Source: Haloarcula marismortui ATCC 43049 (GTDB lineage: Archaea; Halobacteriota; Halobacteria; Halobacteriales; Haloarculaceae). From it: DNA of 64,000 bases. The stretch is from assembly GCF_000011085.1 (NCBI RefSeq), contig NC_006394.1:62001-126000 (forward strand), read 5' to 3'. A program made the translations under genes and the position numbers. Position 1 is the first letter of the stretch. Each line of letters starts with the position of its first letter. The notes below the pieces were generated by a model. It had not been told where the DNA came from and did not search any database. It worked only from the letters and a program-made list of their open reading frames with translations. Below are positions 31,304 through 63,386 of the stretch, in pieces.

Positions 31304-31324
31304 GCCCCCGAGTGGGTGCGGGGC
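31304..31324 (+). promoter_or_regulatory. leader hairpin (a) of the GGGT-loop family
   Basis: A GCCCC/GGGGC stem enclosing a loop with GAGTGGGT, preceded by GTTTATTG. It lies 25 bases before the ATG at 31350. GGGGC can alternatively pair with GCCCC just upstream of the start codon. Confidence 0.6.
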
Positions 31325-31349
31325 GGTTCCTGTGCTGCCCCTGATTTGT

Positions 31350-31640
31350 ATGTCTGGTCCGGATAGATACGACGATACGGCAGACGATCACGAACGGTTC
31401 GAAGCGGAATTGCTCGCTCAGGATCGGGATGCGCGGTCACCATCGACGGCGGATCTTGACGACGAGACGGCCCGCCAGCTGGTTCGAGAGCTACTCGATG
31501 CCGGGACAGTCACACCGGTCGTCGACCAGCGGCTCCTCGTTCACGAGCCCAGCAACACAGCGTTCGAATCGATGCAGCAGCTCGCCGTCTTCCACACAGG
31601 CTGGACGGCCGCCCGGGACGCCGGCGAGGGTGATGGGTGA
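31350..31640 (+). CDS. 96-residue acidic plasmid-type protein
   Basis: A helical protein with DDETARQLVRELLDAGTVTPVVDQRLLVHEPSNTAFESM. No enzyme motif is seen. The start MSGPDRYDD follows a GGGT-loop leader hairpin, and the stop overlaps the next ATG by one base, so it begins a run of small zinc-ribbon genes. A family member of haloarchaeal plasmids is likely, but no function is known to me. Confidence 0.6.
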   Translation: MSGPDRYDDTADDHERFEAELLAQDRDARSPSTADLDDETARQLVRELLDAGTVTPVVDQRLLVHEPSNTAFESMQQLAVFHTGWTAARDAGEGDG

Positions 31641-31966
31641 TGCAGCAGACGCTGGCCGGCTGTGCCTTCTGCGAGGCTCCATCCGGGATAGAGACTGGGA
31701 TCGCCTACACGTGGGGGAAGGAAGAGCGGGTCAACCACCCGATTTGCGTCGACTGTGCGATCCAAGAGACGCCGGATCCCGATGATCGTGATCACTACGC
31801 CTGTGACAGCTGTGGCCTCGTCGTCAACGCGCTCGCAGCGCTCACACGGTTTCGAATCGAACTCGGCCATCTCGAAGGCCCGATACAGGTCTGTGCGCGG
31901 TGTAGTCCAGGCGGGCCAGCAACGTACTGGACACGCGACCTCGAGGCACACATCGTCTCTGACTGA
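31640..31966 (+). CDS. double zinc-ribbon protein
   Basis: A 108-residue protein with CAFC, CVDC, CDSC and CARC pairs spread over the chain. This would form two zinc ribbons (first pair around residues 8-11 and 36-39, second around 54-57 and 85-88). It is coupled to the previous gene by a TGATG overlap. Probable nucleic-acid or protein-binding role; no partner can be named. Confidence 0.68.
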   Translation: MQQTLAGCAFCEAPSGIETGIAYTWGKEERVNHPICVDCAIQETPDPDDRDHYACDSCGLVVNALAALTRFRIELGHLEGPIQVCARCSPGGPATYWTRDLEAHIVSD

Positions 31967-32116
31967 CCCGCCGAGCGGTCGTCGACGCGAGTGGTACGGC
32001 GACCACTGCGGGAGGGTCACAGTTGTCCGTAGCTGTCCCACCCCGCGAACTCAGCAGCGCTGGTTGTGTCGCTGTCTCGTTGCTCCGCTATCTTCAACAG
32101 ACGGGCGCTCCTCGGG

Positions 32117-32473
32117 ATGACTATGGACTGCCCCGCGTGCGGGTCCCCCGTCACCCTCGAGGTCGGACCAGACCGGCCCCTGTCGACGTCGCTGTCCGAC
32201 GCCGTCCTCGCAGCGGAAGAGGACGAGCAGATCGAGGTGACCCGCGATTGTTGGGACTGTGGCTGGCACGAAACGCGGGCGCTTCGCGTCGCATCGATCG
32301 ACAGGACCGCCGGCGACGAGACTGCCGTCGAGCGAGCCGCACTCATCGACGAGATTGCCGATGAGCTCGCAGCGATCGGCTGTGTGGGTACGCTTGAGGA
32401 GACGCTGGCTGCAATCCGTGAGCAACGAGAAACCGACTCGGCGACGACCGATACGGACGACGCGGCGGAGTGA
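32117..32473 (+). CDS. zinc-ribbon protein, 118 residues
   Basis: It starts MTMDCPACGSPVTLEVG and has a second pair CWDCGWHETRALRV, forming one zinc ribbon over the first ~55 residues. An acidic helical tail follows. An ATG at 32123 would give a start directly at MDCPAC. It lies in the same run of small co-directional genes as its neighbours. Unknown function. Confidence 0.62.
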   Translation: MTMDCPACGSPVTLEVGPDRPLSTSLSDAVLAAEEDEQIEVTRDCWDCGWHETRALRVASIDRTAGDETAVERAALIDEIADELAAIGCVGTLEETLAAIREQRETDSATTDTDDAAE

Positions 32474-32479
32474 CTCGCA

Positions 32480-32809
32480 ATGCCTGATACAGAGGCCAAC
32501 TATAATGTTCGTGAGCAAACCGGGAATCCCGAGCACGCATCGGTCGACGATGTGGTTGACCTCGTGATCTACCGGGCGCAGAACCCGCGAACCGAGCACG
32601 AGGATGCACATTTCGATACGGCGGTCGCGGCTCTCGTCGACAGATACGGAACGGAGTCGGTCCGGACAGTCATCAACCGCATCCTCGTCGACGACGAGCC
32701 GTTCCGGACCGCCACGAACGGCCTTGAGATGCGCAACGTCGACGGCGTTCGGATCGGAACCGCAGCCAGCTGGTTTCTCGAGGAGCTAAACGCACAGGAC
32801 GACCACTGA
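32480..32809 (+). CDS. 109-residue acidic protein of unknown function
   Basis: Mixed helical protein: VDDVVDLVIYRAQNPRTEHEDAHFDTAVAALVDRYG followed by TVINRILVDDEPF. It starts six bases after the zinc-ribbon gene, so an operon is likely. No motif is recognised. Confidence 0.58.
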   Translation: MPDTEANYNVREQTGNPEHASVDDVVDLVIYRAQNPRTEHEDAHFDTAVAALVDRYGTESVRTVINRILVDDEPFRTATNGLEMRNVDGVRIGTAASWFLEELNAQDDH

Positions 32810-32893
32810 GGGACCGGTTGAAAGGCCGCAGCGACAGGCCGTCGAGCCCCCATTTTTAACTCCTGTTCGTCCTATCTACCCGTCGAGGCCATA

Positions 32894-33151
32894 ATGGCAC
32901 CCTCCACCCCGAGAGACTCAGATCCATCCCCCGATCTACTCGTTGAAATCGTCGAGACACTGGAAGCCCACGGGCTCCCCACCGACTCGTATCAGCTCCA
33001 CGACGCTGTTGACGTCGAGGCACTCGAGCAGCTTCTCGCATCCTCAGCCGGGGACGTGGAAGTCCGGTTCACCGTGGAGGGGATCCAACTCGCCGTCACC
33101 CACGACGGCGTCGATGTCCTTCTCGACGAGCCAGCCGGGGCACCGGATTAG
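32894..33151 (+). CDS. HalOD1-domain protein
   Basis: An 85-residue protein that is almost entirely a halobacterial output domain 1: LLVEIVETLEAHGLPTDSYQ, then LHDAVDVEALEQLLAS, and the beta strands VEVRFTVEGIQLAVTHDG. HalOD1 is an archaeal output module usually fused to response regulators or free-standing. Here it stands alone in a plasmid-type cluster. Confidence 0.72.
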   Translation: MAPSTPRDSDPSPDLLVEIVETLEAHGLPTDSYQLHDAVDVEALEQLLASSAGDVEVRFTVEGIQLAVTHDGVDVLLDEPAGAPD

Positions 33152-33738
33152 TAGCGCGATCGAATTCGTCGACAGCGACACTCCCTGAAAGCCCTCGGCC
33201 GCTCGGCATCCCGCGACCACCGCTGCGCTCCTCGTCCCTGCGGTGCTTGCGGGGTCGGGGGACGACCGAGGCGGCCTCGCCCTTTCTGAGTCCGCCAGGA
33301 CGGTGAATGACCATCCGAGCGGCGCAGCCGGGTGGACAGGTGTGTCCGTACCGGCCCGCCCCGCTCGCCGCTGCCGCCCTCCGCGTCGCTCGCGACCGAC
33401 CATTCCGGGCTGCCTGCCTGCGGTAGCGGGCGGGCTGCCGGGCTAAAGTGAATGTGCCCTCGGCGCCAGCGGGAAAGCGCGGGGGGTTGCGCGGCGTGGC
33501 TGCTCACCCCCCACGCTTTCTCCGCTGGCCGCTCGCTCCGGGCGGGTCGGCGCGCGGTGCTGGTTGGGGTCGCCGCACTCGGGCGCGCTCTCGCTCGCGC
33601 CCGGTAGGGCGCTCGCGAAGGCGCGAGCGAGAGCGCGCAGTCGGTGCTATCGGTCGTCGACGTCGTCGGAAAACCGCGATGTTAGGGGCATCGCGGTGGC
33701 GGCGCACGAGCGCCTTCAGTGGTATCTGGAGGATACCA
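33152..33738. other. 587-base GC-rich stretch without a convincing gene
   Basis: No frame here has haloarchaeal protein composition; open frames are arginine/proline-rich shadows of GC-rich DNA. It contains the long inverted repeat listed separately and several CGCTCG-type tandem motifs. It lies directly before the OB-fold gene and could hold an origin, transfer origin or a structured RNA. Confidence 0.55.
33583..33638. repeat. 19-base perfect inverted repeat in the gene-free stretch
   Basis: The arm 33583-33601 (GCGCGCTCTCGCTCGCGCC) is matched without error by its complement at 33620-33638, leaving an 18-base loop. It is the strongest stem-loop I found in the window and lies about 100 bases before the OB-fold gene. 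Confidence 0.75.
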
Positions 33739-34599
33739 ATGTCAAGTAACAACTCGAGTCGCAAGGTCGTTACGGTGGATGAACAGGCATTCGAACGAAC
33801 CGAAGACGCCGGCGTCGACGAGGACGGCTTCAAGGTCGTCGACGACAAACCGGAGTTCCGAGCGACGGTTCAGCAGGAAAAGCAGGCGAAGGTGGATTCC
33901 AACCACCCAGACGGCATCGTCCAGGACTTCTCGCACCTGCCCCTCGCGCAGGAAGAGAAGATTCGCGCCCGGGAGGCCGAACTGGACCACATCAGCGCCC
34001 AGGCGGAACTCGGCACCCAAGACGGGCGGGCGAAGCGAACTCGCAAGGTCGTCACCGAACGGCGACAGCGTAAGCGGGCGGAACGCACCCCGGACCGGAC
34101 GGATCCGCGAGAGCGTCTCTCCCGGATGGAGCTGGCGAAGGTGAACCAGGAAGCAGACCGGATGGCACAGCGGCTTCGCACCGGTCACAGTCGGGCGGCC
34201 GTCTCGCGGGCGCTCGCAAAGCGGGTCGCCAAGGGGCAAGACATCACCAAAGCAGTGTTCGACACGATGGATGCACTCAAGGCGGCCCCCGGCGCCATCT
34301 GCCCGATCGAGGACGTCCCGGACGTGCAGACGGATGAGGTGAGCATCGAAGGAGAAGTCGTTCAGCTCTGGGATGCTTCCAGCCGGAAGATCGCTCAAGT
34401 GGGCTTGGTCGCGGACGACACCGGGAAAATCAAGTTCACCTCGTGGCGAAAATCGGAGCCTGCCTTCGTCCAAGAAGGGGACACCGTCCGAATGCGGGCG
34501 GTTAAGAAGAACTGGTACGAGGGACGATGTTCACTCGCCGTGACCTACGACAGTATGATCGTCTTCCCAGAACGCGACCGCCGCTGGTGGGAGGAGTAG
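33739..34599 (+). CDS. OB-fold single-stranded-DNA-binding (RPA-like) protein
   Basis: A 286-residue protein. Residues about 1-200 are charged and helical, with a basic stretch (RKVVTERRQRKRAERTP). The C-terminal ~90 residues form an OB fold: VSIEGEVVQLWDASSRKIAQ, then VGLVADDTGKIKFTSW and EGDTVRMRAVKKNWYEGRCS. This matches the OB domains of haloarchaeal RPA proteins. The start MSSNNSSRK is chosen because the longer frame upstream is arginine-rich non-protein. A terminator-like hairpin follows the stop directly. Confidence 0.8.
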   Translation: MSSNNSSRKVVTVDEQAFERTEDAGVDEDGFKVVDDKPEFRATVQQEKQAKVDSNHPDGIVQDFSHLPLAQEEKIRAREAELDHISAQAELGTQDGRAKRTRKVVTERRQRKRAERTPDRTDPRERLSRMELAKVNQEADRMAQRLRTGHSRAAVSRALAKRVAKGQDITKAVFDTMDALKAAPGAICPIEDVPDVQTDEVSIEGEVVQLWDASSRKIAQVGLVADDTGKIKFTSWRKSEPAFVQEGDTVRMRAVKKNWYEGRCSLAVTYDSMIVFPERDRRWWEE

Positions 34600-36923: not shown

Positions 36924-37132
36924 ATGCTCCCCCTCTCACCTTAGATAAATATGTATTCGGTCCCCTGTTGTGGCCTTGAGTGCCGCCCCAGTTCCTGCAT
37001 AGCCAGTTCATTGGTATAAGAATCAGACTCGGTCGCTGTACGCCATCGGTTCCGAGATATCTGAACCGTCTTGTAGAGGTTTATTCCACCCATAATGGGT
37101 GAAGGATTCGCTGTACTGGCGAGTTCCTGAAC

Positions 37133-38065
37133 ATGGTGAGAACGATGACTACCAGAGACATCTACGAAACTGGCTTCGACGAAGACGTCCAAACAGAGTC
37201 GAGCGCTACCCAGTGTCCAGAGTGTGACGGCCGGGTCACTACGAATGCGGTCGAAACGATCTGCGAGGACTGTGGACTTGTTATCGAGGAACAACGTATC
37301 GATCACGGGCCGGAGTGGCGGGCGTACGATGCAGACGAGCGCGAGCGAACAGGCGCACCACTCACTACAGCCCGTCACGATCGAGGCATCTCGACCGAGA
37401 TCGGCCACGGAACCGACGCACACGGGAACGAACTCTCTGGTCAGAAACGCCGGCAGCTGGCCCGGATGCGACGTGAGCAGACCCGTGGTCGCTGGCGGTC
37501 CAAAGCGGAACGGAATCTCGCACACGGGTTGGGCGAGGTACGCCGGCTGGCGAGTGCGCTCGAGCTCTCTGAGTCGATTCGTGACCAGGCGTGCCAGCTC
37601 TTCCGGAGCGCTCAGAGCGAGGATCTGCTTCGAGGCAGATCCATCGAAGCCATCGGTGCAGCGAGTATCTACGGTACCTGTCGATGTAACCAACACCCGC
37701 TTCTCCTCGAGGATGTCGTCGACGCCGCCCGAGTCGAGTCCGCTCGTGTCACCAACGCCTACCGAACACTGAATCGCGAATTAGAGCTCCCAGCACCACC
37801 AATGCGCCCGACGTCGTTCATTCCACGCCTGATCTCGGCGCTGGAGTTAGACCACGACATTCGTCGGCGCGCGAACGAACTCGCAGAACGCGCCGAGGGG
37901 ACAACCCTCACGAACGGCTGTCAGCCATCGGGCGTCGCGGCCGCCTGTGTCTATCTGGCTGCCCAAGAGCAGGGCGCGTTGATTACCCAATCCACCGTCG
38001 CGTCGGCAGCAGAGGTGTCAGTCGTGACGCTCCGAAGCCGGCGAGACGAACTCCAAGCGATCTGA
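37133..38065 (+). CDS. transcription initiation factor TFB
   Basis: About 310 residues. An N-terminal zinc ribbon (CPECDGRVTT...CEDCG) is followed by the B-finger/linker (GPEWRAYDADERERTGAP) and two cyclin-fold repeats (QLARMRREQTRGRWR...IYGTCR and PPMRPTSFIPRLISALEL...AAACVYLAAQEQGAL). TFB recruits RNA polymerase to TATA/BRE promoters. Haloarchaea carry several TFBs with different promoter preferences. An ATG at 37145 is an alternative start. This copy is adjacent to a TFB C-terminal fragment (39264-39452) and precedes a long run of genes with unusual leaders. Confidence 0.92.
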   Translation: MVRTMTTRDIYETGFDEDVQTESSATQCPECDGRVTTNAVETICEDCGLVIEEQRIDHGPEWRAYDADERERTGAPLTTARHDRGISTEIGHGTDAHGNELSGQKRRQLARMRREQTRGRWRSKAERNLAHGLGEVRRLASALELSESIRDQACQLFRSAQSEDLLRGRSIEAIGAASIYGTCRCNQHPLLLEDVVDAARVESARVTNAYRTLNRELELPAPPMRPTSFIPRLISALELDHDIRRRANELAERAEGTTLTNGCQPSGVAAACVYLAAQEQGALITQSTVASAAEVSVVTLRSRRDELQAI

Positions 38066-39210: not shown

Positions 39211-39268
39211 CTCACCGTTTAACCAACAGTCTCCGATGGAGATGGCTTCTGTTGGTTAACACGGTGAG
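39211..39268. repeat. TTAACCAACA dyad, copy 2, with extended arms
   Basis: TTAACCAACA at 39219-39228 and its complement at 39250-39259, 21 bases apart. The arms extend outward: CTCACCGT (39211-39218) pairs with ACGGTGAG (39261-39268). An inner TCTCC/GGAGA pair lies in the loop. It overlaps the presumed start region of the TFB-like fragment. Confidence 0.75.
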
Positions 39269-40641: not shown

Positions 40642-40845
40642 ATGTACGACCGATATTCTGACGTTGAGGAACTACGGCCGACCGGCGAGGCATCCCACAG
40701 CCCGGACACAATGTTGGACGACGGGTGTGAGAGTGACCTCCTGGCGGCAACGCGTCGCGACGAGCACTGGTGGCGACCTGATGCGACGACGACAGTCACG
40801 TGGAGTGTCTATCCGCGCCGGCGAGTGGTGAGGCGCTACCGATGA
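40642..40845 (+). CDS. 67-residue protein
   Basis: MYDRYSDVEELRPTGEASHS is followed by an acidic middle and a Trp/Arg-rich end (TWSVYPRRRVVRRYR). The stop overlaps the next ATG (ATGA), which favours real translation. No family is recognised. Confidence 0.5.
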   Translation: MYDRYSDVEELRPTGEASHSPDTMLDDGCESDLLAATRRDEHWWRPDATTTVTWSVYPRRRVVRRYR

Positions 40846-41030
40846 ATCAGCAAGTCGAACAGGGCTACTGGATGCATCGTGTACTCAGCAATCTCAGCCG
40901 CCTCGACGTCGAGCGGTTGGACGACGCGGATCGAGAGCGAGTCGAGACTGCAAGAGACCTCCTGGAAGAAGTGAGCCTACTCACGGGACCAGAGGACGGG
41001 AGCGGACCAGACGCCCCAACAGACGACTGA
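40842..41030 (+). CDS. 62-residue helical acidic protein
   Basis: MNQQVEQGYWMHRVLSNLSR is followed by a second helix (DADRERVETARDLLEEVSLL) and an acidic tail, a helical hairpin. It is translationally coupled to the upstream gene. Unknown function. Confidence 0.55.
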   Translation: MNQQVEQGYWMHRVLSNLSRLDVERLDDADRERVETARDLLEEVSLLTGPEDGSGPDAPTDD

Positions 41031-41076
41031 TCGTCATCGCCGTCGACGCCAGGGGCACTTCCAGTGTCGGTTTATC

Positions 41077-41099
41077 GCCCCCCAAGAGGGGTGCGGGGC
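41077..41099 (+). promoter_or_regulatory. leader hairpin (b) of the GGGT-loop family
   Basis: A GCCCC-type/GGGGC stem around AAGAGGGGTGC, preceded by GTTTATC, 17 bases before the ATG at 41117. GCGGG can alternatively pair with CCCGC four bases later. Confidence 0.62.
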
Positions 41100-41116
41100 T
41101 TCCCGCGAGTCCAGAC

Positions 41117-41497
41117 ATGGCGACACTACAAGCTGCGACGACGTCAACCGGCGCGATCGTATCGGATCCACAGGCTGTCCGCGAACTCTGTGAGAGCTAC
41201 TGCTTCGGGACGCTCGACTGGGAGGTCACCGACAAGGGCGAACTCACCATCTGGGGGTACGATGACTTCGAAGTGTACGAGGCGCGGGAGAACGGCCTCC
41301 CGGACTACGAGGGCGGCATCGTGACCCACGAATTCTTGCGAGAACTTGCCGACCACCTCGAAGCTGACGAGGAACTCGACATCCAGACAGCGGGGTTCAC
41401 GAAGTGTCGCTTCCCAGTGCTGGCGAAGCGGTACGTCGTTCGCGACGGCGAAGTCCTCTACGCGGATCTCAGTTCCCCCGAACCAATCGAGGAGTAG
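41117..41497 (+). CDS. 126-residue plasmid-type protein
   Basis: An alpha/beta protein: AVRELCESYCFGTLDWEVTD, GELTIWGYDDFEVYEAREN, VTHEFLRELADHLEADEELD. It looks like a compact single domain. It follows leader hairpin (b) and precedes hairpin (c). The strongly acidic composition is as expected of a haloarchaeal cytoplasmic protein. Function unknown. Confidence 0.62.
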   Translation: MATLQAATTSTGAIVSDPQAVRELCESYCFGTLDWEVTDKGELTIWGYDDFEVYEARENGLPDYEGGIVTHEFLRELADHLEADEELDIQTAGFTKCRFPVLAKRYVVRDGEVLYADLSSPEPIEE

Positions 41498-41504
41498 CGT
41501 TGTT

Positions 41505-41548
41505 CGTCCCCCGAGAGGGGTGCGGGGCGATCCAGTAGCGGTCGCCCC
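41505..41548 (+). promoter_or_regulatory. leader hairpin (c) with an alternative pairing
   Basis: First stem: CCCC-type arm and GGGG around GAGAGGGGTGC (41505-41529), after GTTGTTCG. Alternative stem: GGGGCGA (41524-41530) with TCGCCCC (41542-41548), seven perfect pairs. The two stems share the GGGG segment and cannot form together. The ATG is at 41565. Confidence 0.65.
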
Positions 41549-41564
41549 GTGAGGTGATTGCTCG

Positions 41565-42227
41565 ATGGGCCACCGCGCACTCGTTGCGTACGAACGCACA
41601 GACGGACAGTACACGCTCCACTACAGCCATTGGGGCGCAGCGAACCTCAAGCTCAAGCACCGAATTTCGGCTGAGTCGCCGTTCGGTGGCGACGACACCA
41701 ACTCCAAGTGGGCGAAACAGCTGCTGGCTGAACTGGCCGATGGCCTCGAGGCAGATGCGGTCGACGGCTACCTCGCTGACGAGGATCGACCGTCGACGGT
41801 CGTCGAGCCGAAGCCCCGCGCCACCGGGCTCACCCTCGACGAGATCATCGCTGACCATCTCGACTACCTCCACCACGAGGCGTTCTACGTGGTGTCACCG
41901 ACCTTCGAGGTGACCGCCTACCGGACGCTGTGGTTCGGCCTGCAGTACGATTCAGAGACAATCGACAACGGTGAGACGGTCGGGAACGGGGCGCTCGCGA
42001 CCGTTCGGTGGCACGACGGCGAGCCGGTCGGCGACGGCCATCTGAAGGGGCAGTTCCGGGCGCTGAAGGACGTCGTCGGCGATATGGTCGACAAGGGGGT
42101 GTTCACGCCGTCGACGGCGAGGCAGTACCTCAAGCAGAAACTCGGCGAGTGGGTCGGCGAGCGCCAGGAACTGCGCATCCCTGGTGGTGAATCACCGTCG
42201 AAAACTGCGTCAGTCGACCGATTATAA
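41565..42227 (+). CDS. DUF6735-like haloarchaeal plasmid protein
   Basis: A 220-residue protein beginning MGHRALVAYERTDGQYTLHY then SHWGA, an opening I associate with the haloarchaeal DUF6735 family. An alpha/beta body and a helical C-terminus (TARQYLKQKLGEWVGER) follow. It is preceded by hairpin (c). The role is unknown; the family tends to sit in plasmid and provirus clusters. Confidence 0.68.
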   Translation: MGHRALVAYERTDGQYTLHYSHWGAANLKLKHRISAESPFGGDDTNSKWAKQLLAELADGLEADAVDGYLADEDRPSTVVEPKPRATGLTLDEIIADHLDYLHHEAFYVVSPTFEVTAYRTLWFGLQYDSETIDNGETVGNGALATVRWHDGEPVGDGHLKGQFRALKDVVGDMVDKGVFTPSTARQYLKQKLGEWVGERQELRIPGGESPSKTASVDRL

Positions 42228-42264
42228 CGCCAATCCCTTTCTGAGTCCCCACGAACGTCTGGAT

Positions 42265-42549
42265 ATGTCAGATCGGGCTGATGACGAGGTGCGAGTATGG
42301 CTCGTCGAACGTACCTACTCCGATGATGAACAGAACCTAATCATCCTCACCTACGCGACACCCGACGGCAAACAGTATTATCGGAAAGAGCGGGCACTCA
42401 CGTCCTTCACCGATATTCGAGATACGACAGCGGCAGTCGATGCGGGGCCCGGCAATCTCGGCACGGTTGATGACCCCGATCTCCAGGACCAATACGCGGC
42501 CGAAGCGCAGCGAATGCAGGAGGTCCACGACCCGAACGACGTGATCTGA
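42265..42549 (+). CDS. 94-residue acidic protein
   Basis: It starts MSDRADDEVRVWLVERTYSD, followed by LIILTYATPDGKQYYRKERA. A short beta domain with an acidic helical tail. The in-frame extension upstream to 42184 overlaps the previous gene and is less protein-like. Function unknown. Confidence 0.6.
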   Translation: MSDRADDEVRVWLVERTYSDDEQNLIILTYATPDGKQYYRKERALTSFTDIRDTTAAVDAGPGNLGTVDDPDLQDQYAAEAQRMQEVHDPNDVI

Positions 42550-42610
42550 TGCTCACCAGTAGACGTAGTCCCGTGCCATTGGTTATGTCGGAGGAGGCCG
42601 TAGACGGGGT

Positions 42611-43360
42611 ATGCGCGAACTCGTCTTCGCCCTCGAATACGAGCCGGGGTGCAATAGGGTGGCGGATGCCCTTGCCGACTACCCCGACGCCCGTGTCCGC
42701 TCGCTTTCGTTGCACGCGACTGCCGACCAACTTTGGCGAGTCGACCATGCCACCGGCACTCCGGACGCACTCGACGCCATCGAGGACGCGTTTCGAAACA
42801 GCGACTACTACGCCGACTGTCTCGCCACCGAGGACTGCGGCGCCACCCAGACCACCCGCGTCCTTGACCGCACGGACGACACGCTCGTCCTCTACTCCGA
42901 CTGGGAGCGAACCCCCACCTGCGCCTCGGTTCCCCACATCGCCCGCGACCATCTCGGGGACGGCGTGCTGTTCGAGACCCGTCATGAGGGCCGCCACTAC
43001 ACGTGGCGACTCATCCACTCGGGCGACGGCGACGTGGCGGCATTCTTCGACTCCCTCGAGGTTGCCGTCGAAGAATGCGCTCAGATGGAGATGCTCCGCA
43101 CCGCGGACACGACGACAGCAGCTGGAGGAAGCGACGAAACACCGAGCGGATTACCCCCGGCGCAGGAAGCCGCCCTCCAAGCCGCCGTCGAACACGGCTA
43201 CTACGAGTCGCCCCGCGAGGTCGATGTCGGCGAGTTGGCCGAGCATCTCGACGTGCCTCGGTCAACACTTACCTACCGGCTCCGTCGGGCGGAAGAACAT
43301 TTGGCGAAGCAACACGTCGCCGGCGAGCGGGTAGCGGAAGAACGGCTGGCATCGCACTGA
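42611..43360 (+). CDS. HTH_10 (bacterio-opsin activator-type) regulator
   Basis: A 249-residue protein. The N-terminal ~150 residues form a sensor-like alpha/beta region. The C-terminal ~70 residues (PPAQEAALQAAVEHGYYESP, REVDVGELAEHLDVPRSTLT, YRLRRAEEHLAKQ) are the HTH_10 domain of the haloarchaeal Bat family. It lies 59 bases before a P1B-2 ATPase gene on the same strand, with a perfect palindrome in the gap, so it is the likely metal-responsive controller of that pump. Several Cys and Met residues (ECAQMEM, DCLATEDC) could sense metal. Confidence 0.82.
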   Translation: MRELVFALEYEPGCNRVADALADYPDARVRSLSLHATADQLWRVDHATGTPDALDAIEDAFRNSDYYADCLATEDCGATQTTRVLDRTDDTLVLYSDWERTPTCASVPHIARDHLGDGVLFETRHEGRHYTWRLIHSGDGDVAAFFDSLEVAVEECAQMEMLRTADTTTAAGGSDETPSGLPPAQEAALQAAVEHGYYESPREVDVGELAEHLDVPRSTLTYRLRRAEEHLAKQHVAGERVAEERLASH

Positions 43361-43368
43361 CACCGCGG

Positions 43369-43382
43369 TTGGAATATTCCAA
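43369..43382. promoter_or_regulatory. 14-base palindrome TTGGAATATTCCAA
   Basis: A perfect palindrome 38 bases before the ATG of the second P1B-2 ATPase and nine bases after the HTH_10 gene stop. Candidate operator. Confidence 0.55.
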
Positions 43383-43419
43383 CAAAGACATATCGAACTC
43401 CCGCTCCTACCGTGAGGTG

Positions 43420-45783: not shown

Positions 45784-45862
45784 CTCTGCGGCGGGAAGTG
45801 CGGGCAGGACGCTCCTCTTTCGCGACTTTCCTGCGCTCTATCGAGACAATTTGCAGTTTGTC

Positions 45863-45886
45863 TGGGGCAGTAGAGACTGAGCCCCA
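45863..45886 (+). promoter_or_regulatory. TGGGGC/GCCCCA hairpin before the 45904 gene
   Basis: TGGGGC (45863-45868) pairs with GCCCCA (45881-45886), preceded by CAGTTTGTC and 18 bases before the ATG. It resembles only the second stem of the leader family, without the conserved GGGT loop. Confidence 0.45.
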
Positions 45887-45903
45887 CCGCAGGCTCTGAT
45901 TTG

Positions 45904-46326: not shown

Positions 46327-46355
46327 ACGCGGTCTCCCGAAGCGAGGTTTTTCGA

Positions 46356-46378
46356 GCGCCGGCGATGGGTGCCGGCGC
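46356..46378 (+). promoter_or_regulatory. leader hairpin (g) of the GGGT-loop family
   Basis: A perfect eight-base stem GCGCCGGC/GCCGGCGC around loop GATGGGT, preceded by GTTTTTCGA. It is identical over 23 bases to hairpin (h). The ATG of the next gene is at 46435. Confidence 0.68.
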
Positions 46379-46434
46379 ACCGAGCAGACAGCGCCGAGCG
46401 GCGCCCGGTGAGTCGGCACTCCGAGGTGAACCAG

Positions 46435-47307: not shown

Positions 47308-47351
47308 GGACGTACACACGCAGGGTGTTTTTCGGCCGGGGCGGAGAGAGT

Positions 47352-47370
47352 GACCCGGTCGAACCGGGTC
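47352..47370 (+). promoter_or_regulatory. GACCCGGT/ACCGGGTC hairpin before the 47380 gene
   Basis: Eight perfect pairs with a three-base loop, ending nine bases before the ATG. A GTTTTTCG box lies about 20 bases upstream of the stem, as in the other leaders, but the conserved loop is absent. A variant or unrelated hairpin. Confidence 0.5.
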
Positions 47371-47775: not shown

Positions 47776-47814
47776 CGGATTGCAATCCCGCTACGACTGT
47801 GTGGTGTTGTTTCA

Positions 47815-47849
47815 GCGCCGGCGATGGGTGCCGGCGCACACGCGCCGGC
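47815..47849 (+). promoter_or_regulatory. leader hairpin (h) with duplicated 5' arm
   Basis: GCGCCGGC (47815-47822), loop GATGGGT, GCCGGCGC (47830-47837), then ACAC and a second GCGCCGGC (47842-47849). The middle arm can pair with either flank, giving two exclusive eight-base stems. It is preceded by GTTGTTTCA. The ATG is at 47858, within TACCGATG. Confidence 0.72.
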
Positions 47850-48442: not shown

Positions 48443-48454
48443 AATCCCAAATCG

Positions 48455-48462
48455 TATTTATA
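48455..48462 (+). promoter_or_regulatory. TATA box for the 48487 regulator
   Basis: TATTTATA lies 25-32 bases before the ATG at 48487. This contrasts with the neighbouring hairpin-led genes, which lack such a box. Confidence 0.6.
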
Positions 48463-48486
48463 CAGTTAGGGTTTAGAAAGACCCAG

Positions 48487-49437: not shown

Positions 49438-49473
49438 CACCAACCACGCAGTCTGGCGGAAAATTGCGATGGG

Positions 49474-50838: not shown

Positions 50839-50930
50839 CCGAATGTAATTGGACAGTATCTTGCTATGACTATATACGTTGCCGACGGTGGCGACGAAGT
50901 CGCGACGACGTGAGCGCTGGTGTTGTTGTT

Positions 50931-50967
50931 CGTCCCGCAAGGGGTGCGGGACGACACATTCGTCCCG
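50931..50967 (+). promoter_or_regulatory. leader hairpin (d) with two alternative stems
   Basis: CGTCCCGC (50931-50938) pairs with GCGGGACG (50946-50953) around AAGGGGT. CGGGACG can instead pair with CGTCCCG at 50961-50967. It is preceded by GTTGTT. The ATG is at 50976 within TACCGATG. Confidence 0.7.
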
Positions 50968-50975
50968 GATTACCG

Positions 50976-51973: not shown

Positions 51974-52007
51974 GGACGGTGAGGGCGTTTCCGGCTCTGT
52001 TTGTAGA

Positions 52008-52042
52008 ACCCCCGAGAGGGGTGCGGGGGTCACCACTCCCGC
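52008..52042 (+). promoter_or_regulatory. leader hairpin (e) of the GGGT-loop family
   Basis: ACCCCC (52008-52013) pairs with GGGGGT (52025-52030) around GAGAGGGGTGC. GCGGGGGT can alternatively pair, with one G-U, to ACTCCCGC at 52035-52042. It is preceded by GTTTGTAG. The ATG is at 52052 within TACCGATG. Confidence 0.68.
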
Positions 52043-52051
52043 AACGTACCG

Positions 52052-52738
52052 ATGAACGGGAACGCCCGACGCACCACGTCGAACGTAGTCCAGACAGAAG
52101 CGCTCGCTAACCGTCGCGACGACTCCGTCGAATACGTCGGCTTTCGCATCGACGGCCAGGCCGTCGTTCTGAATCTCTCCGAACACCAGCGTCTCACTCC
52201 GGATCGAAGTCTCGATCTGGTCAACCACAGTCCCACCGGCTACGAGTGGGGATACGCTGGAAGCGGGCCCGCACAGCTCGCCTGTGGGCTCCTCCTCGAC
52301 TACTACAACGACGCTCAGGTCGCCCGAGAACACTACATCGCGTTCCGAAATCGCGTGATCAGCCAGCTCGAGTGTGATGGCCCCGCGGCGTGCTGGCACC
52401 TCACAGGTGAAGAAATCGACGCGGCGATGGCGACGATCACCGACGATGTCGTCGCCCTTCCCGACGGCGGGGGGCCGTCACCGTCACTCCCCGAGAACTG
52501 GCGAACGGTCACTCGCCCTGACCGACGAGTCTTCCAGCGGGCTGATCGCGACCACTACATCGTGCTCGGGGAGGGAACCGACGGCTGGCTGGCCGTCCTC
52601 TGCAGTCAGGGAGACCGCGCCTACCCGGCACCCCTAGCGAGCCGGACGGTTTCGGGCGATGCCGATGTCGATCGGGCCGTCCGGGCCCTCGTCGACGAGA
52701 GCAACGACCTCATCGAGCCACCGGAGGGGGAGTGCTGA
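52052..52738 (+). CDS. DUF6166-like protein (copy 2)
   Basis: A 228-residue protein with EYVGFRIDGQAVVLNLSEHQ, then SPTGYEWGYAGSGPAQLACG and LLLDYYND, the DUF6166 signature. Residues beyond about 130 form a second domain ending in DRAVRALVDESNDLI. It is related to the 51419-51973 product only in the central block. It is coupled to the following 43-residue gene by TGATG. Confidence 0.72.
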   Translation: MNGNARRTTSNVVQTEALANRRDDSVEYVGFRIDGQAVVLNLSEHQRLTPDRSLDLVNHSPTGYEWGYAGSGPAQLACGLLLDYYNDAQVAREHYIAFRNRVISQLECDGPAACWHLTGEEIDAAMATITDDVVALPDGGGPSPSLPENWRTVTRPDRRVFQRADRDHYIVLGEGTDGWLAVLCSQGDRAYPAPLASRTVSGDADVDRAVRALVDESNDLIEPPEGEC

Positions 52739-52869
52739 TGGAGACGCTTCGGTTGTCGCGAGCCACCCACCAGTTGCTCGAACGGGGGGTCGAGGCGCTC
52801 GAGAAAATCGGTCGCGAACTGGAACGGTACAACGACCGGCAAGAGCAGACTGACGGTACCGACTCGTGA
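52738..52869 (+). CDS. 43-residue helical protein
   Basis: METLRLSRATHQLLERGVEA is followed by a charged amphipathic helix. The ATG overlaps the previous stop by one base, and the stop overlaps the next GTG (GTGA at 52866). The coupling on both sides argues that it is translated. It may be a small adaptor; no family is known. Confidence 0.55.
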   Translation: METLRLSRATHQLLERGVEALEKIGRELERYNDRQEQTDGTDS

Positions 52870-53531
52870 CGCAGACACGTTCTCCCGGCCAGCGAGTGAG
52901 TACCGGATTCCAGTACACGCGCACTCCCGAGGGGTGCTCGTGTCCCATTCATCGCGACGGCCAGCCGTTCACGGCGCCGCTCGGCTTGCGGTTCGCAGAG
53001 CGCGTCCATATCGAATCGATCCCGCGCCACGTCGCCGGCGCGATCTACGAAGCCCATCATTCCTATATGGACAGTGTCCCGCGGACGAACCTCGTCCATC
53101 ACGGGCTCTGTTACCAGGACCAGCTACTGGGTGCGATTACCTGGCGCTATCCGCTGATTCGCTCGCTGGAGTACGACGGGACGCGATACGAGGGTGACGA
53201 GATCGTCGAGGCAGCACGGATCTGCATCGGCGTCGACTTCCCGAACCTCGCCTCTGCCGCCCTCGCCCGGTCGATGGAACGGTTCGTGCGCCGGCACGGC
53301 CGGCGGCGAGGCGTTCGCCTTCTGCTGACGTTCGTGCGAGCTGACTTCGATGGCTCGATGATCAAAGCGCTCAGAGACAAGGGCTGGCACTGTGCCGGGA
53401 AAACGGAACCCGGACAGGCAGGTAACCGACCCGACAAGCAAATCCGAGAGCGGCCGAAATGGCGGTTTCTCTGTGAAGTTCCTGCTGAGTCGAGACGGGA
53501 ACAGACCTCACTCGGACGGTGGACCCCGTGA
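52866..53531 (+). CDS. GNAT-fold protein resembling phage Mom DNA-modification proteins
   Basis: A 221-residue protein from GTG 52866. The block HHSYMDSVPRTNLVHHGLCY, QLLGAITWRY, EAARICIGVDFPNLASAALA, RSMERFVRR, LLLTFVRADFDGSMIKALRD and KGWHCAGKT follows the order of the GNAT-type Mom family. In Mom proteins a similar E-L-x-R strand, P-N-x-x-S helix and final 'GW.y.G' element build the acyltransferase that hyper-modifies adenine. Function here is inferred. It is coupled to genes before and after. Confidence 0.62.
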   Translation: MTQTRSPGQRVSTGFQYTRTPEGCSCPIHRDGQPFTAPLGLRFAERVHIESIPRHVAGAIYEAHHSYMDSVPRTNLVHHGLCYQDQLLGAITWRYPLIRSLEYDGTRYEGDEIVEAARICIGVDFPNLASAALARSMERFVRRHGRRRGVRLLLTFVRADFDGSMIKALRDKGWHCAGKTEPGQAGNRPDKQIRERPKWRFLCEVPAESRREQTSLGRWTP

Positions 53532-54064
53532 CCACGAACGCTCGCCTCATTGAGTTCGCAGCAGAGGAAGACTCGAACAACCAGCCGGAGCGCGATCCAT
53601 CAGTGGTTGAGCGACTGTTGGACCCGATATCACCGGCCCTCGGGCTGCGACTCATCCCTGGTCGGGGTGACCCGGTGTACCTCCAAAATAGGGGCACCGA
53701 ACGCTACCTGTTCCGGGATGCCCACGAGCGGTGGTTCATCCTCCAGCCCTCGGCCAAGGAGTCGGTCGACGACTTCGTTCGCTGGGTGTATCTCCCCGAG
53801 GGCAAGCCCGCCGAGATCGCCCGAATAGCGATCCGTCAACGGACGGTTCTCGGCTACAGGTACGTTCAGCGGAGTGAGGCTCCGGAGCCGGTCGCGACGA
53901 CTGTGACAGCGAGGTATGTCAGTGAGCCCTGGCCCGACGATGTCTACGAGTGTGGTCCCTGTGGTGAGCTGTTTGACGAACCACAGACCCACGCTGTTCA
54001 TTGTTGGAAAGAACACTTCTGGATTCCAAATCCCAAGCAGATTCGCCGTGCGCGAAGGAAATAA
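53528..54064 (+). CDS. 178-residue protein with C-terminal C2HC finger
   Basis: It starts at GTG 53528, overlapping the previous stop (GTGA). The first ~130 residues form an alpha/beta domain (RYLFRDAHERWFILQPSAKE, VDDFVRWVYLPEGKPAEIAR). The C-terminus YECGPCGELFDEPQTHAVHC then WKEHFW is a zinc-finger-like element. Possible nucleic-acid-binding partner of the Mom-like protein, by operon position only. Confidence 0.62.
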   Translation: MTTNARLIEFAAEEDSNNQPERDPSVVERLLDPISPALGLRLIPGRGDPVYLQNRGTERYLFRDAHERWFILQPSAKESVDDFVRWVYLPEGKPAEIARIAIRQRTVLGYRYVQRSEAPEPVATTVTARYVSEPWPDDVYECGPCGELFDEPQTHAVHCWKEHFWIPNPKQIRRARRK

Positions 54065-54121
54065 CATATAGTTGTTATTTAATGACCAATCTCTATATCG
54101 TTTGAATTTGTGTGTGGTAAT

Positions 54122-54511
54122 ATGGCGACAAGGATGGCCACCCGACTTGAGGACTACTTCGAGCAACGAACGGACGGAAAGCTCCGTAGCATCGTGAAAT
54201 ACGAGGAGAGTTCCTACGAGATCATCCACCTCAGGGATGATGTTGCCAAGCAATATACGCCGGACGAGCTTGAATCGGCAATCGATGAGTCCCGGATGGA
54301 ATCGTTAGCTGCCCCAATATATGAGAACACGTTCTCAGAAGGCCACGGACAGCTCACGTGCCTTGTACAGTGCTTCGAGAATGTTATTGAGATGAATTTC
54401 GTTCTCGACGATGGGATTGGGGCCGCAGTCGCTCTTGATGCTGAAGCCATGGGTGATGCTCACGGGCTTGTAGCTGAGGCAAGGCAAATCGTCCTCGAAG
54501 AGCGAGAGTAG
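54122..54511 (+). CDS. 129-residue haloarchaeal protein (DUF7522-like)
   Basis: A single domain: LEDYFEQRTDGKLRSIVKYE, SSYEIIHLRDDVAKQYTPDE, NFVLDDGIGAAVALDAEAMG. The YEI-(I/L)-(H/Y)LRDDV pattern recalls the haloarchaeal DUF7522 family (unverified). It has an AT-rich upstream region (54063-54105) with TATTTAAT and TATATC, so it is probably transcribed independently of the run before it. GTG 54110 is an alternative start. Confidence 0.66.
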   Translation: MATRMATRLEDYFEQRTDGKLRSIVKYEESSYEIIHLRDDVAKQYTPDELESAIDESRMESLAAPIYENTFSEGHGQLTCLVQCFENVIEMNFVLDDGIGAAVALDAEAMGDAHGLVAEARQIVLEERE

Positions 54512-54575
54512 TCGCCGATACTGGGCCATCCAGCCGCATTTTGAGAGGTTCTTCACGCCTATCGGCGACAGTTGA

Positions 54576-54617
54576 TTAACCAACGAATTCCGAGGGACCA
54601 GAGTGAGTGTTGGTTAA
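54576..54617. repeat. TTAACCAACA dyad, copy 3
   Basis: TTAACCAAC (54576-54584) and GTTGGTTAA (54609-54617), matching the four-copy dyad at the same spacing, with the tenth base pair of the arms lost. Hairpin (f) begins 14 bases later. Confidence 0.72.
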
Positions 54618-54631
54618 GTGGTGTTGTTGTT

Positions 54632-54657
54632 GCGCCCGGCAGAGGGGCGCAGGGCGC
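54632..54657 (+). promoter_or_regulatory. leader hairpin (f) of the family
   Basis: GCGCCC (54632-54637) pairs with GGGCGC (54652-54657) around a loop containing GAGGGGCGC, preceded by GTTGTTGTTG. The ATG is seven bases later. No alternative downstream arm is seen. Confidence 0.6.
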
Positions 54658-54663
54658 GAGACG

Positions 54664-55869
54664 ATGCAGGCGGCCGTCGATGAGCGTTCCTGCGTCGAGG
54701 TGACTGAAATGAAGGACCCAGAGTCGAGAACCATCTTCGCTGGCGTCGATGGACGTACCGACACCGAACTGCCCAAGTGGTACCGACAGCGGCACGGGGG
54801 CGAAAACCCCGTGAGCTTCGCCGAGGCGATCCGTGACCTCCCGCAGGCCGTCGAGACGACCGTGGCGTACCAGAATCCCTATACTGACGAGTGGGTCGAG
54901 ACGGAGCGGTTCAACGCGCTCGTCGAGCCAAGTCGCGCTCGCTCGCAGGCCCGAGAAGGGGACGCCGAGACCGATCCGCTATTTCACGTTCCGACGGACA
55001 GCTACGCGATCATTAACCCCGTCGACGTCTACGGACCGCTGGAGGAGGTCCTTCGCGAAGAGACCATCGATGGGACGCCGCTGGGTGACGTGATGTTCGG
55101 CGAGATCCGGCGCTACCGGAGCGGCGGCGAGGTCCATATGGACATCATGTTCGACGGCCTCGAAGTGCACCTCCCCGGCCGGTCGGACCCGATCACGATG
55201 GGCGTCACGTCGGGTTACGACTTCTTCGGTGAGCACGCCGTCTACGTCGAGGGGTTCGCTCAGGACGGGTATTGTTCGAACACGATGCGTTCGCTCACCG
55301 ACAAGGAGGTCATCAAACACGTCGGCGACGTGTGGAACTTCCGGAGCTGGTGGGAGGAACTCCTCGCACAGGTCGAACTCGTCGCTGACGACCTCTTCGA
55401 GTTCATCCGGGACGCCCAGGACATCGACCTCGACTTCTCGGAGCTGCCGTTCACCGTCACGGAGTTTTATAGTCTGCTGGGCTTCCCGGACTACCTGGCC
55501 GAGCGCGCTGCGAGCGATGCGGAGGCCAACGCGCCCTCACCGATCGAGATCGATATGTGGACGCTGCATTCCGGGGCGACGTACGCGCTGACCCACTTCT
55601 TCCAGGGCAAGGAGGGTGCGTCGCTGGACGGCTACGTTCGCACGGCCAACGACATTCTGTTCAACCCGGAGGGCACCATCGAGCGCGTCGAACGCGCTTA
55701 CGAGGAGCAGCTGGAGACAGACGGCGATGACGGGTCGCAGGCGTCGCTCGCCGGCGAGCGGGCGCTCGCGAGCATCGAGCGCATCAGCGACGATCTGCAA
55801 GAGAAGGTCAACCAGTTCGAGGAGCGCGAGGACGCGCTTCGTGAGCGGTTCCAAGATGCGATGAGCTGA
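54664..55869 (+). CDS. DUF932-like plasmid/phage protein
   Basis: A 401-residue protein. The order FAEAIRDLPQAVETTVAYQN, YAIINPVDVYGPLEEVLREE, MGVTSGYDFFGEHAVYVEGF, NTMRSLTDKEVIKHVGD resembles DUF932 plasmid-like proteins, which occur on many plasmids and phages without a settled role. A helical C-terminus with a terminal coiled coil (ISDDLQEKVNQFEEREDALR) follows. It is preceded by a TTAACCAACA dyad and by hairpin (f). Confidence 0.7.
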   Translation: MQAAVDERSCVEVTEMKDPESRTIFAGVDGRTDTELPKWYRQRHGGENPVSFAEAIRDLPQAVETTVAYQNPYTDEWVETERFNALVEPSRARSQAREGDAETDPLFHVPTDSYAIINPVDVYGPLEEVLREETIDGTPLGDVMFGEIRRYRSGGEVHMDIMFDGLEVHLPGRSDPITMGVTSGYDFFGEHAVYVEGFAQDGYCSNTMRSLTDKEVIKHVGDVWNFRSWWEELLAQVELVADDLFEFIRDAQDIDLDFSELPFTVTEFYSLLGFPDYLAERAASDAEANAPSPIEIDMWTLHSGATYALTHFFQGKEGASLDGYVRTANDILFNPEGTIERVERAYEEQLETDGDDGSQASLAGERALASIERISDDLQEKVNQFEEREDALRERFQDAMS

Positions 55870-62741: not shown

Positions 62742-62944
62742 GCCACTACGTCGTAGCCAGCTTGTTCGATTGCCGCGTTCACGTCGTCGTCTGAGACTCC
62801 ATCCTCGAGGACCACGTCGACCGTGTCAGCTTCGTGGTCGGCCTCGATCCGATTCACATCATCGAGGTTTCGCAGGGCGGTCTCCACGTTCTGTTCGCAC
62901 CCGTTGCAGGACATCCCGGTGACTGAGATCGTCTTTCGCTCCAT
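62738..62944 (-). CDS. CopZ-like HMA metallochaperone
   Basis: A 68-residue HMA domain: MERKTISVTGMSCNGCEQNV, ETALRNLDDVNRIEADHEAD, then AIEQAGYDVVA. Metal is bound by Cys13 and Cys16 (MSCNGC). It would carry Cu(I) or a similar ion to the neighbouring ATPase, with which it is convergent (four-base overlap). A longer start at 63022 (MSTSNRDE) is possible. Confidence 0.85.
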   Translation of the reverse strand: MERKTISVTGMSCNGCEQNVETALRNLDDVNRIEADHEADTVDVVLEDGVSDDDVNAAIEQAGYDVVA

Positions 62945-63048
62945 GCGGGCCTGTAAACACTCGCGGGGAATGACCATTACGGTAACCGTTGTATCGGTTT
63001 CATCTCTATTAGAGGTGGACATTATCGTCCGGAGAGTTGTTTGTGTCG

Positions 63049-63067
63049 GCCCCAAAGGGGTGGAGGC
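63049..63067 (+). promoter_or_regulatory. weak leader hairpin (i)
   Basis: GCCCC-AAA-GGGG, with an outer GCC/GGC, preceded by GTTTGTG and nine bases before the ATG at 63076. It keeps AAAGGGGT of the loop core but the stem is short. Confidence 0.4.
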
Positions 63068-63075
63068 TCTTTGAG

Positions 63076-63291
63076 ATGGGAACCACTGACGACGAAGAGA
63101 GCGACGAATTCCCTCCAGAGAAGCGTCTGGAAGCACCGAACACGCGCCTGATCAAGGCAGGGATCGCGACGATTCCCGATATGGAAACCTTGCAAGAGTG
63201 TGTAGCCTACGAGAACGCCCACCAAAATCGAACGCAGATTCTGCGCCGGCTCAAGTGGAAAGCTGAAGAGTTGCGTGAGGACGAAGGGTAA
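63076..63291 (+). CDS. 71-residue acidic plasmid-type protein
   Basis: MGTTDDEESDEFPPEKRLEA is followed by a helical part (RLIKAGIATIPDMETLQECV, NRTQILRRLKWKAEEL). It may be a small DNA-binding or adaptor protein. Leader-like sequence upstream and a TTAACCAACA dyad directly downstream. Function unknown. Confidence 0.6.
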   Translation: MGTTDDEESDEFPPEKRLEAPNTRLIKAGIATIPDMETLQECVAYENAHQNRTQILRRLKWKAEELREDEG

Positions 63292-63300
63292 GCGCTGTCC

Positions 63301-63342
63301 TTAACCAACACACTCCGCGTGAGTTTCCCTATTGTTGGTTAA
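63301..63342. repeat. TTAACCAACA dyad, copy 4
   Basis: TTAACCAACA (63301-63310) and TGTTGGTTAA (63333-63342), 22 bases apart, with an inner ACTC/GAGT pair. Leader hairpin (j) starts 23 bases later. Confidence 0.75.
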
Positions 63343-63365
63343 TATGCTGTGCCGCGGTTTTTCGG

Positions 63366-63386
63366 GCCCCTGAATGGGCGCGGGGC
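63366..63386 (+). promoter_or_regulatory. leader hairpin (j) of the family
   Basis: GCCCC (63366-63370) pairs with GGGGC (63382-63386) around TGAATGGGCGC, preceded by GTTTTTCGG. The ATG of the next gene is at 63415. Confidence 0.58.

Follow-up and report, generated by a model that had tools for sequence, protein, structure and literature searches.

The stretch of DNA analysed here, called the window in what follows, comprises 64,000 nucleotides (nt), namely bases 62001-126000, of the 155.3 kb plasmid pHMA155 (contig C6; pNG600 presumably being its older name) of Haloarcula marismortui ATCC 43049, whose genome amounts to 4.27 Mb in nine contigs, and it is near-identical to a plasmid of Halobaculum roseum (99.9% over 27.4 kb). 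In this plasmid the genes of a type IV secretion system (T4SS) are followed by an array of genes on one strand, which includes a candidate gene for a single-stranded DNA-binding protein (OB-fold, RPA-like) and a gene for a TFB, and near the far end of which lies an ArdC-like gene. The window agrees with pHMA155 in 99.9% of the 1165 bases compared, and its T4SS protein and TFB match at 100%. The subject of this analysis is a short hairpin that, together with a T-rich box (T-box) in front of it, recurs before genes of the array.

In its common form, with the GGG of the loop taken as anchor, the element consists of the T-box with the consensus TGTTTTTC (variants GTTGTT and GTTTAT), a few nt, a GC-rich stem of mostly 5-9 bp, a loop of 11 nt (7 nt if two more pairs form) with the core RAKGGGTG, and the 3' arm. 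As a sequence-only reading of the window had noticed, the T-box stands just before the hairpin; it is conserved, lies outside the short stem and keeps a nearly fixed spacing to the hairpin, while the distance from hairpin to ATG varies.

That reading had placed nine such hairpins on the plus strand, and all nine are present there, each with a T-rich box, a stem that changes from site to site and a GGGT or GGGC loop core. Bit scores refer to R1, a covariance model built from these nine sites, whose own scores (33-46 bits) are therefore high by construction. T-box and hairpin are found at 31288..31330 before the first array gene, 31350 (38.4 bits; also in the alignment A2), at 41063..41105 before gene 41117 (43.5 bits), and at 41492..41534 before the DUF6735 gene 41565 (Pfam PF20509; 44.0 bits), where the stop codon of the preceding gene directly abuts the T-box. 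The copy at 46341..46383 before gene 46435 (43.3 bits) has the form GCGCCGGC-GATGGGT-GCCGGCGC, and further ones lie at 47800..47842 before gene 47858 (44.1 bits), at 50916..50958 before gene 50976 (42.2 bits), the upstream neighbour of which is a restriction gene on the minus strand, and at 51993..52035 before the DUF6166 gene 52052 (Pfam PF19663; 45.6 bits). For the copy at 54619..54661 (33.0 bits) a gene start at 54664 had been assumed, which is probably too early; most likely the gene begins with the ATG at 54709, as annotated in the same plasmid, about 50 nt after the hairpin. The ninth copy, at 63350..63392 (43.2 bits), precedes gene 63415, annotated as DUF6610.

A tenth site, at 63033..63073 before the small gene 63076, had been called weaker, in agreement with its R1 score of 11.5 bits, which alone is not significant, and it was left out of both A2 and R1; orthologues of this gene elsewhere form protein group 17, in which three leaders are scanner-positive. 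Also on the plus strand are a degenerate copy at 40800..40841 before the small gene 40842 (stem GCGCC/GGCGC, loop GGCGAGTGGTGA; 15.0 bits, E 0.079) and another at 37072..37106 before the TFB gene (9.7 bits, not significant), whose orthologous leaders in other plasmids have a better hairpin, as well as two variants recognised by eye, one at 45856..45885 before gene 45904 with a T-box and the stem GGGG/CCCC, the other at 47327..47358 before gene 47380 with a T-box and the stem CCGGG/CCCGG. Since neither of these variants has GGGT in its loop (the orthologous leaders of 45904 elsewhere have the loop AATGGGTGAG), the loop, which had been claimed to be fixed, keeps its core as a tendency. In some families the GC reported to follow GGGT takes part in closing the stem, in others it stays unpaired. 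Beyond the window a further copy lies at C6:126841 (22.6 bits), where in the near-identical H. roseum plasmid the ArdC-like gene begins.

Inverted pairs of the form TTAACCAAC...GTTGGTTAA occur at window positions 13650-13690, 39219-39259, 54576-54617 and 63301-63342. The last two are directly upstream of the T-boxes of the 54619 and 63350 sites, and similar pairs stand before hairpins in other plasmids; they might possibly represent an operator on top of the element.

Base pairing of the stem

In the nine window sites, taken with six pairs and an 11-nt loop, 85.2% of the cells are paired, 12 are double-change cells and the covariation score is 0.491, and none of 500 shuffles reaches these values for any of the three measures. 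Double changes are seen in 4 of the pairs and 7 pair types occur, neither number being unusual (133 and 67 of 500 shuffles, respectively); with slid partners the score is 0.023-0.167. Among 150 matches fitted to the model (96 distinct), 91.7% of the cells pair, with 135 double-change cells as compared to 54.6 (standard deviation 4.5) after shuffling and 2-62 when the partner is slid by 1-3 columns.

Because this alignment was itself fitted to the model, the pairing test was repeated without the stems in detection. T-box and loop alone gave 542 matches against about 7 expected from Markov sequences, and in 149 non-redundant sites so obtained the stem scores with the own partner summed to 1396.6, compared to a permuted mean of 947.4 (standard deviation 26.5, maximum 1052.2 in 5000 permutations). 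When each of 37 downstream protein groups was represented by a single site, here with stem-aware detection, the own sum was 417.4 and the maximum of 5000 permutations 316.5. As both sums exceed all permutations, the pairing is genuine and not the effect of one family; the claim that the stems change while their arms stay complementary thus holds under shuffling, in the model-fitted matches and under stem-blind permutation, and the covariation is statistically significant. In most other counts the scanner used stem pairing for detection, which inflates pairing there and which the stem-blind test of 149 sites avoids; duplicates and matches below score thresholds (20-24, varying by analysis) were left out of the scanner counts.

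Inside families the pairing is tolerant: within orthologue groups, with the outermost pairs excluded, 14 distinct changes are compensated and 36 distinct changes affect one side only (11 G.T, 6 A.C and 19 other), and the strong covariation signal comes mainly from the comparison between families. There, the same loop core is carried by stems of very different letters, even with the G and C arms swapped (GGGG/CCCC as opposed to CCCC/GGGG). It is therefore base pairing and not the letters that is conserved, and the element must be seen as a folded single strand, be it RNA, single-stranded DNA or an extruded cruciform.

G.T mismatches are not clearly favoured over A.C mismatches, and since the counts vary by method, folding as RNA gains no support from them. 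Mismatches flanked by two pairs on each side comprise 8 G.T and 6 A.C in 220 distinct hairpins, and 9 and 7 in 264, the latter count adding loci fetched for one exact hairpin core; other ways of counting gave 1 v 8, 14 v 16 and, for the distinct single changes within orthologue groups, 11 v 6. For control, tRNA acceptor stems of relatives held 4 G.U among 77 pairs and no A.C, in a small sample of 11 distinct stems with at least five standard pairs each. Folding of the minus strand, claimed from the count of 1 v 8, was dropped as the other counts are about even or opposite. A second, possibly switch-like copy of at least six bases of the 5' arm occurs downstream of the hairpin in 12 of 106 representatives versus 4.2 expected, a weak excess among related sites.

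Distribution and genomic setting

At E ≤ 0.01, R1 matched 27 of 41 genomes, the own one included (26 of 40 relatives), and at E ≤ 0.001 it matched 145 of 292 genomes of the class in 47 of 77 genera, again including the own. In a draw of 148 genomes from the phylum, 16 were matched, all from the own order, of which at least eight others were unmatched; no match was found in the other 124 genomes, of which the 12 that are named all come from other orders. One exact 23-base core occurs in at least 119 GTDB genome stretches, and all 80 among the matches listed bear haloarchaeal names, while scans of IMG/VR with two exact hairpin cores gave 0 matches for those two variants. With the scanner, 335 matches with scores of at least 20 were obtained in 1.49 Mb of fetched loci versus 3 in 0.55 Mb of Markov sequence, a density that holds for loci chosen because they contain matches and not genome-wide. 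Matches may also come in tandem, as before the TFB gene in locus L052 (anchors 5417 and 5449; scanner scores 24.6 and 31.6) and, 90 bp apart, in another genome (G121:C21 40813 and 40903). About every second genome sampled from the class thus contains the element, which marks a block of mostly unknown genes beside a T4SS.

In 127 fetched loci (2.63 Mb, picked for their matches) there are 612 matches, 457 of them unique. All matches lie on one strand in 84 of the 92 loci with at least three, and 561 of 570 are on the majority strand of their locus. An open reading frame (ORF) of at least 45 codons starting with ATG follows within 160 nt in 435 of the 457 unique cases, and in the first set of loci such an ORF was downstream of 258 of 270 matches versus 53% of random places. 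In 391 of the 435, the ATG lies 17-57 nt behind the hairpin. By BLAST, the downstream ORFs fall into 41 protein groups, 23 with at least two members and 18 singletons that may include false ORFs; amongst them are DUF6735, DUF6166, DUF6610, TFB and the ArdC-like protein as well as many families without a Pfam match. The hairpin precedes the ArdC-like gene in loci L052, L055, L176 and L177, the ArdcN domain being above the Pfam cut-off in L177, the one tested. Many unrelated gene families are thus found behind the hairpin in a search across haloarchaeal genomes. The initial observation was right, and it extends further than had been stated. Nor is a known family or the end of an insertion element indicated, two outcomes that would have spoken against it: Rfam gave no match at gathering level in the window, two sub-threshold matches (E ≤ 2) in 40900-54800 both lying away from the hairpins, and 41 protein groups follow in one orientation with an ATG ORF at 435 of 457 sites, though no dedicated search for insertion sequences was made.

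The element had further been claimed to belong to each gene unit and not to be the leader of one operon. In agreement with this, 15 of 56 plus-strand matches in six annotated plasmids come after a gene on the opposite strand (counted by hand, one minus-strand match in L055 being left out), as do 124 of 380 sites according to a plain ORF caller; operon read-through can therefore not be general.

The limitation of the element to one region can be stated in part, for the own plasmid and stretches of two others. On the pHMA155 contig, R1 matches at E ≤ 1 are confined to positions 93288-126884, and the scanner found none in window 1-31000, on the T4SS side. In the H. roseum plasmid (60000-109500 and 139000-161865) and in Natrinema J7-2 (37500-95989), the scanned stretches with T4SS, replication, BREX and metal-resistance genes have matches only at the gene that opens the array and ahead of the ArdC-like gene; a weaker match (17.9 bits) in Halorubrum salinarum stands before one gene beyond the ArdC-like gene. 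By hand comparison, DUF6735 and the T4SS are on the same strand in 35 of the 37 plasmids for which both places are listed, the two exceptions having two copies of each, and a TFB is found in the same record for at least 36 of 60 listed DUF6735 plasmids.

As to the neighbouring genes, an annotated T4SS or conjugative DNA-transfer protein is encoded upstream of the array on the same strand (22376..26746, plus strand), and between it and the array lies a minus-strand gene for a 659-aa protein (28845-30824) that matched nothing in Pfam and PHROGs searches. No relaxase or origin of transfer (oriT) was identified by these searches or by Pfam searches of four hypothetical proteins from the right flank of the H. 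roseum plasmid; according to one survey, archaea may have unknown relaxases (PMC3158045). Between the 659-aa gene and the first array gene, window 30955-31117 contains the words TAGACACCAG (30955 and 31012), CTGGTGTC (31060) and TAGACAGCAG (31108), possibly iterons or transfer-origin sequence.

The TFB gene (37145..38065, plus strand) encodes a member of the transcription initiation factor IIB family (Pfam TFIIB 2.9e-34 and Zn_Ribbon_TF 2.9e-14 on 37133-38065) and is a candidate partner of the element. The candidate OB-fold gene (33739..34599, plus strand) was matched by Pfam PF21473 below the cut-off (E 8e-4, on the longer ORF 33448-34599), and its homologous position in other plasmids is annotated as 'replication factor A'. 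Its own leader hairpin, at 33673-33697, differs from the array element: it has the form ACCGCGAT...ATCGCGGT, is accompanied by a second small inverted repeat and is nearly identical in three copies from Halorubrum and Natrinema plasmids. The last strong copy of the element precedes the ArdC-like gene, and no hairpin is found at the minus-strand restriction gene (about 49474-50838) and the metal ATPase genes of the window. PADLOC left nine of ten proteins unmatched, the sole match being this restriction gene. The gene at 54709-55869 has homologues in tailed haloviruses (PHROG 13083; 30.9-37.3% identity among the matches listed); of 13 such viral records, the two examined (L330 and L331) had no scanner match upstream.

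A possible transcription-start module

The element can be accommodated by the assumption, held tentatively and with somewhat less than even confidence, that T-box and hairpin form a self-contained transcription-start module which acts as DNA and is read by a shared factor. Each copy would be a module of about 45-85 nt beginning at the T-box, which would stand in for a TATA box. With the T-box in that place, the transcription start would fall close to where the hairpin ends on its 3' side, in most cases 17-57 nt ahead of the start codon, and the hairpin itself would hardly be part of the RNA, which would fit the missing preference for G.T. The hairpin might work as DNA with its strands apart, in the open complex, as a cruciform or in single-stranded plasmid DNA, and a common factor, which may be the TFB of the plasmid itself, might recognise its loop, such that the establishment-type genes in the region flanked by T4SS and replication genes would be switched on together. 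Promoter role, action as DNA and identity of the reading factor are all proposed here from sequence comparisons. We lean towards a promoter at the DNA level because homology between plasmids often starts at the T-box, because there is no TATA box at a fixed distance and because an excess of G.T is not clear; that the module might begin transcription is suggested by the same start of homology together with the lack of an upstream positional signal and the upstream neighbours on the opposite strand.

When plasmids were compared by BLAST (loci L056-L059 and L061 being left out), the begins of homology blocks peaked at -25 to -16 from the loop GGG, two 5-nt bins holding 854 and 645 of them; a begin at -45..+5 was seen for 286 of 536 hairpins. 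In a 20-nt bin there were 72 begins per 100 hairpins versus at most 6.5 per 100 hairpinless starts. These begins were counted over pairs, which are not independent of one another, and a short box standing by itself would escape BLAST. On the left side, homology mostly ends at -65..-51; a second maximum of ends is found at +10..+19. In 127 representatives no positional signal was found at -90..-28, i.e., no TATA box keeping a constant upstream distance; in the aligned leader, A+T content is highest in the T-box (0.60-0.65).

A number of observations, however, weigh against such a start module. Smaller peaks of homology begins occur at -125..-111, -40, -30 and +30..+44, and the ends also peak at +10..+19. 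TATA-like words are present at -75..-30 in 3.9% of 383 sites versus 1.6% further upstream, so that a minority of sites may have an upstream box, and the A+T content, otherwise near background, rises slightly at -70 (0.51) and -45 (0.47). The hairpinless control ORFs held many false genes, and their own TATA signal is weak, at 5.7% within 25 nt and 8.9% within 45 nt. The T-box poorly matches what we take to be the haloarchaeal TATA motif, its equation with a TATA box being one that we infer. The comparison of G.T with A.C depends on the counting method, as given above, and a T.G pair conserved in the DUF6735 family agrees with folding of the plus strand. The minimum of 17 nt to the ATG would be compatible as well with an RNA hairpin that lies directly outside the ribosome, and words resembling a Shine-Dalgarno (SD) sequence precede the ATG in 89 of 258 leaders versus 53 of 810 control windows. 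Finally, the ORF caller mislabels neighbours (the DUF6735 site of L053 was called as following an opposite-strand gene, which the annotated neighbour is not), and TFBs are common on haloarchaeal plasmids (261 records), so that their co-occurrence with the element is not specific.

Several of these points are what would be expected of an RNA leader, an explanation that is possible but somewhat doubtful, in which the hairpin would lie in the 5' mRNA made from an upstream promoter or by read-through of the array, and in which its loop would be read by a plasmid or host RNA-binding protein or by the ribosome and so set translation or stability. Structured RNA is usually recognised by stems that covary around a conserved loop, and the covariation is there; the hairpin seldom ends less than 17 nt from the ATG, SD-like words are enriched, upstream TATA-like words exceed those further away, and an ORF on the same strand precedes 256 of 380 sites, at no more than 35 nt in 106 of these. 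The second copy of the 5' arm, found in 12 of the 106 related representatives, would also suit RNA. It is, however, at variance with an RNA leader that no TATA box stands at a fixed distance upstream, that homology starts at the T-box, that 15 of the 56 annotated cases come after an opposite-strand gene, that G.T is not clearly in excess over A.C and that Rfam gave no match. Pending mapped transcript starts, the 'leader hairpin' of the sequence-only reading should be read as a 'start-module hairpin'.

The accumulation of homology breakpoints at the hairpins (277 of 2352 within 25 nt versus 1.4% of random positions), along with stem letters that vary while pairing is kept, could also be explained by an attC-like attachment or recombination site that makes each unit of T-box, hairpin and gene a mobile cassette. 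This is improbable, as there is no exact cassette junction (left blocks end mostly at -65..-51, before the T-box and 30-45 nt further left than the begins, with a second set at +10..+19), the sites keep a bounded distance to the ATG, and the order of the array is partly common to six named plasmids. A signal for single-strand replication or priming repeated along one strand, such as a start of complementary-strand synthesis or a hairpin like that of an oriT or a rolling-circle replication origin, would suit a one-strand element of conjugation-type plasmids, and the hairpin of halovirus SNJ2 is a putative replication origin (PMC13107129); yet the SNJ2 element lies downstream of a rep gene, whereas here a start codon follows 17-57 nt behind 391 of 435 copies, and the scanned T4SS and replication stretches, where priming would also be needed, have no copies, which makes such a signal very improbable. 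Hardly any credence, finally, can be given to an ordinary operator palindrome for a regulator binding double-stranded DNA: it would account for the regulon-like distribution, but a reader of the double-stranded arms would conserve their letters, which are wholly different between families (CCCC/GGGG, GCGCCGGC/GCCGGCGC, GGGG/CCCC) with the pairing kept.

Relation to known folded elements

A more specific form of the start module, in our estimation rather unlikely, would be that of archaeal single-stranded DNA promoters, whose hairpins would fold upon entry of the single-stranded plasmid into a new cell, prior to second-strand synthesis, and would allow the host RNA polymerase together with the plasmid TFB to express protective genes. 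The idea arises because the array lies after the T4SS on one strand and includes ArdC-like, OB-fold (RPA-like) and TFB genes. Expressed at once would be the ArdC-like anti-restriction protein, the TFB and many small proteins, presumably serving counter-defence, and the transferred strand would have to be the minus strand of the array. If true, this would be a convergent counterpart, in another domain of life, of the bacterial leading-region system, and indirect evidence of single-stranded DNA transfer in haloarchaeal conjugation. More generally, the element gives a handle on the gene expression of haloarchaeal conjugation-type plasmids, provides a simple rule by which archaeal candidates for counter-defence genes can be found, and offers a direct test of the passage of single-stranded DNA in archaeal conjugation.

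In the leading regions of bacterial conjugative plasmids, single-stranded DNA promoters are located upstream of anti-defence and SSB genes (PMC11541004). Similar to these Frpo/ssi elements, the element described here is folded and stands in front of genes that share one strand of a conjugation-type plasmid, with candidate single-stranded DNA-binding and ArdC-like anti-restriction genes in the region; unlike Frpo, which mimics a double-stranded promoter with -35 and -10 boxes (PMC11541004), it has a short GC-rich stem and a loop that is conserved, and its T-box is not part of the stem. The nearest haloarchaeal hairpin found in the literature is the putative replication origin of halovirus SNJ2; hairpins of this type are reported for Rep-Arvir elements, with similar sequences in H. 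marismortui (PMC13107129). Both are conserved hairpin DNA in haloarchaeal mobile elements, but the SNJ2 hairpin lies downstream of the rep gene and is proposed as a replication origin. Within the stems of the array no double-stranded core promoter boxes are found. Of 570 matches 561 are on the majority strand, and the ArdC-like gene is preceded by the hairpin; the OB-fold gene, however, has a different hairpin, and most array genes are without known function.

The hairpin promoters of the phage N4 virion RNA polymerase consist of a short stem and a small loop near the transcription start and are used in single-stranded DNA. The element resembles them in its short stem and small loop, but the N4 polymerase is of a different type, and use in single-stranded form is a proposal here. 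As in integron attC sites, structure is kept while sequence varies and there is one copy per gene unit; unlike attC, the element is located 5' of the start codon, and the left-hand homology blocks have no single end point. No description of the element was found in a search of open-access full texts. With the cis-regulatory RNA leaders of Rfam 15 it shares a conserved loop and a covarying stem before genes, but it gave no match to them; it can be classed as new in itself but of a general kind already known, namely a folded cis-acting start element, with a proposed mechanism.

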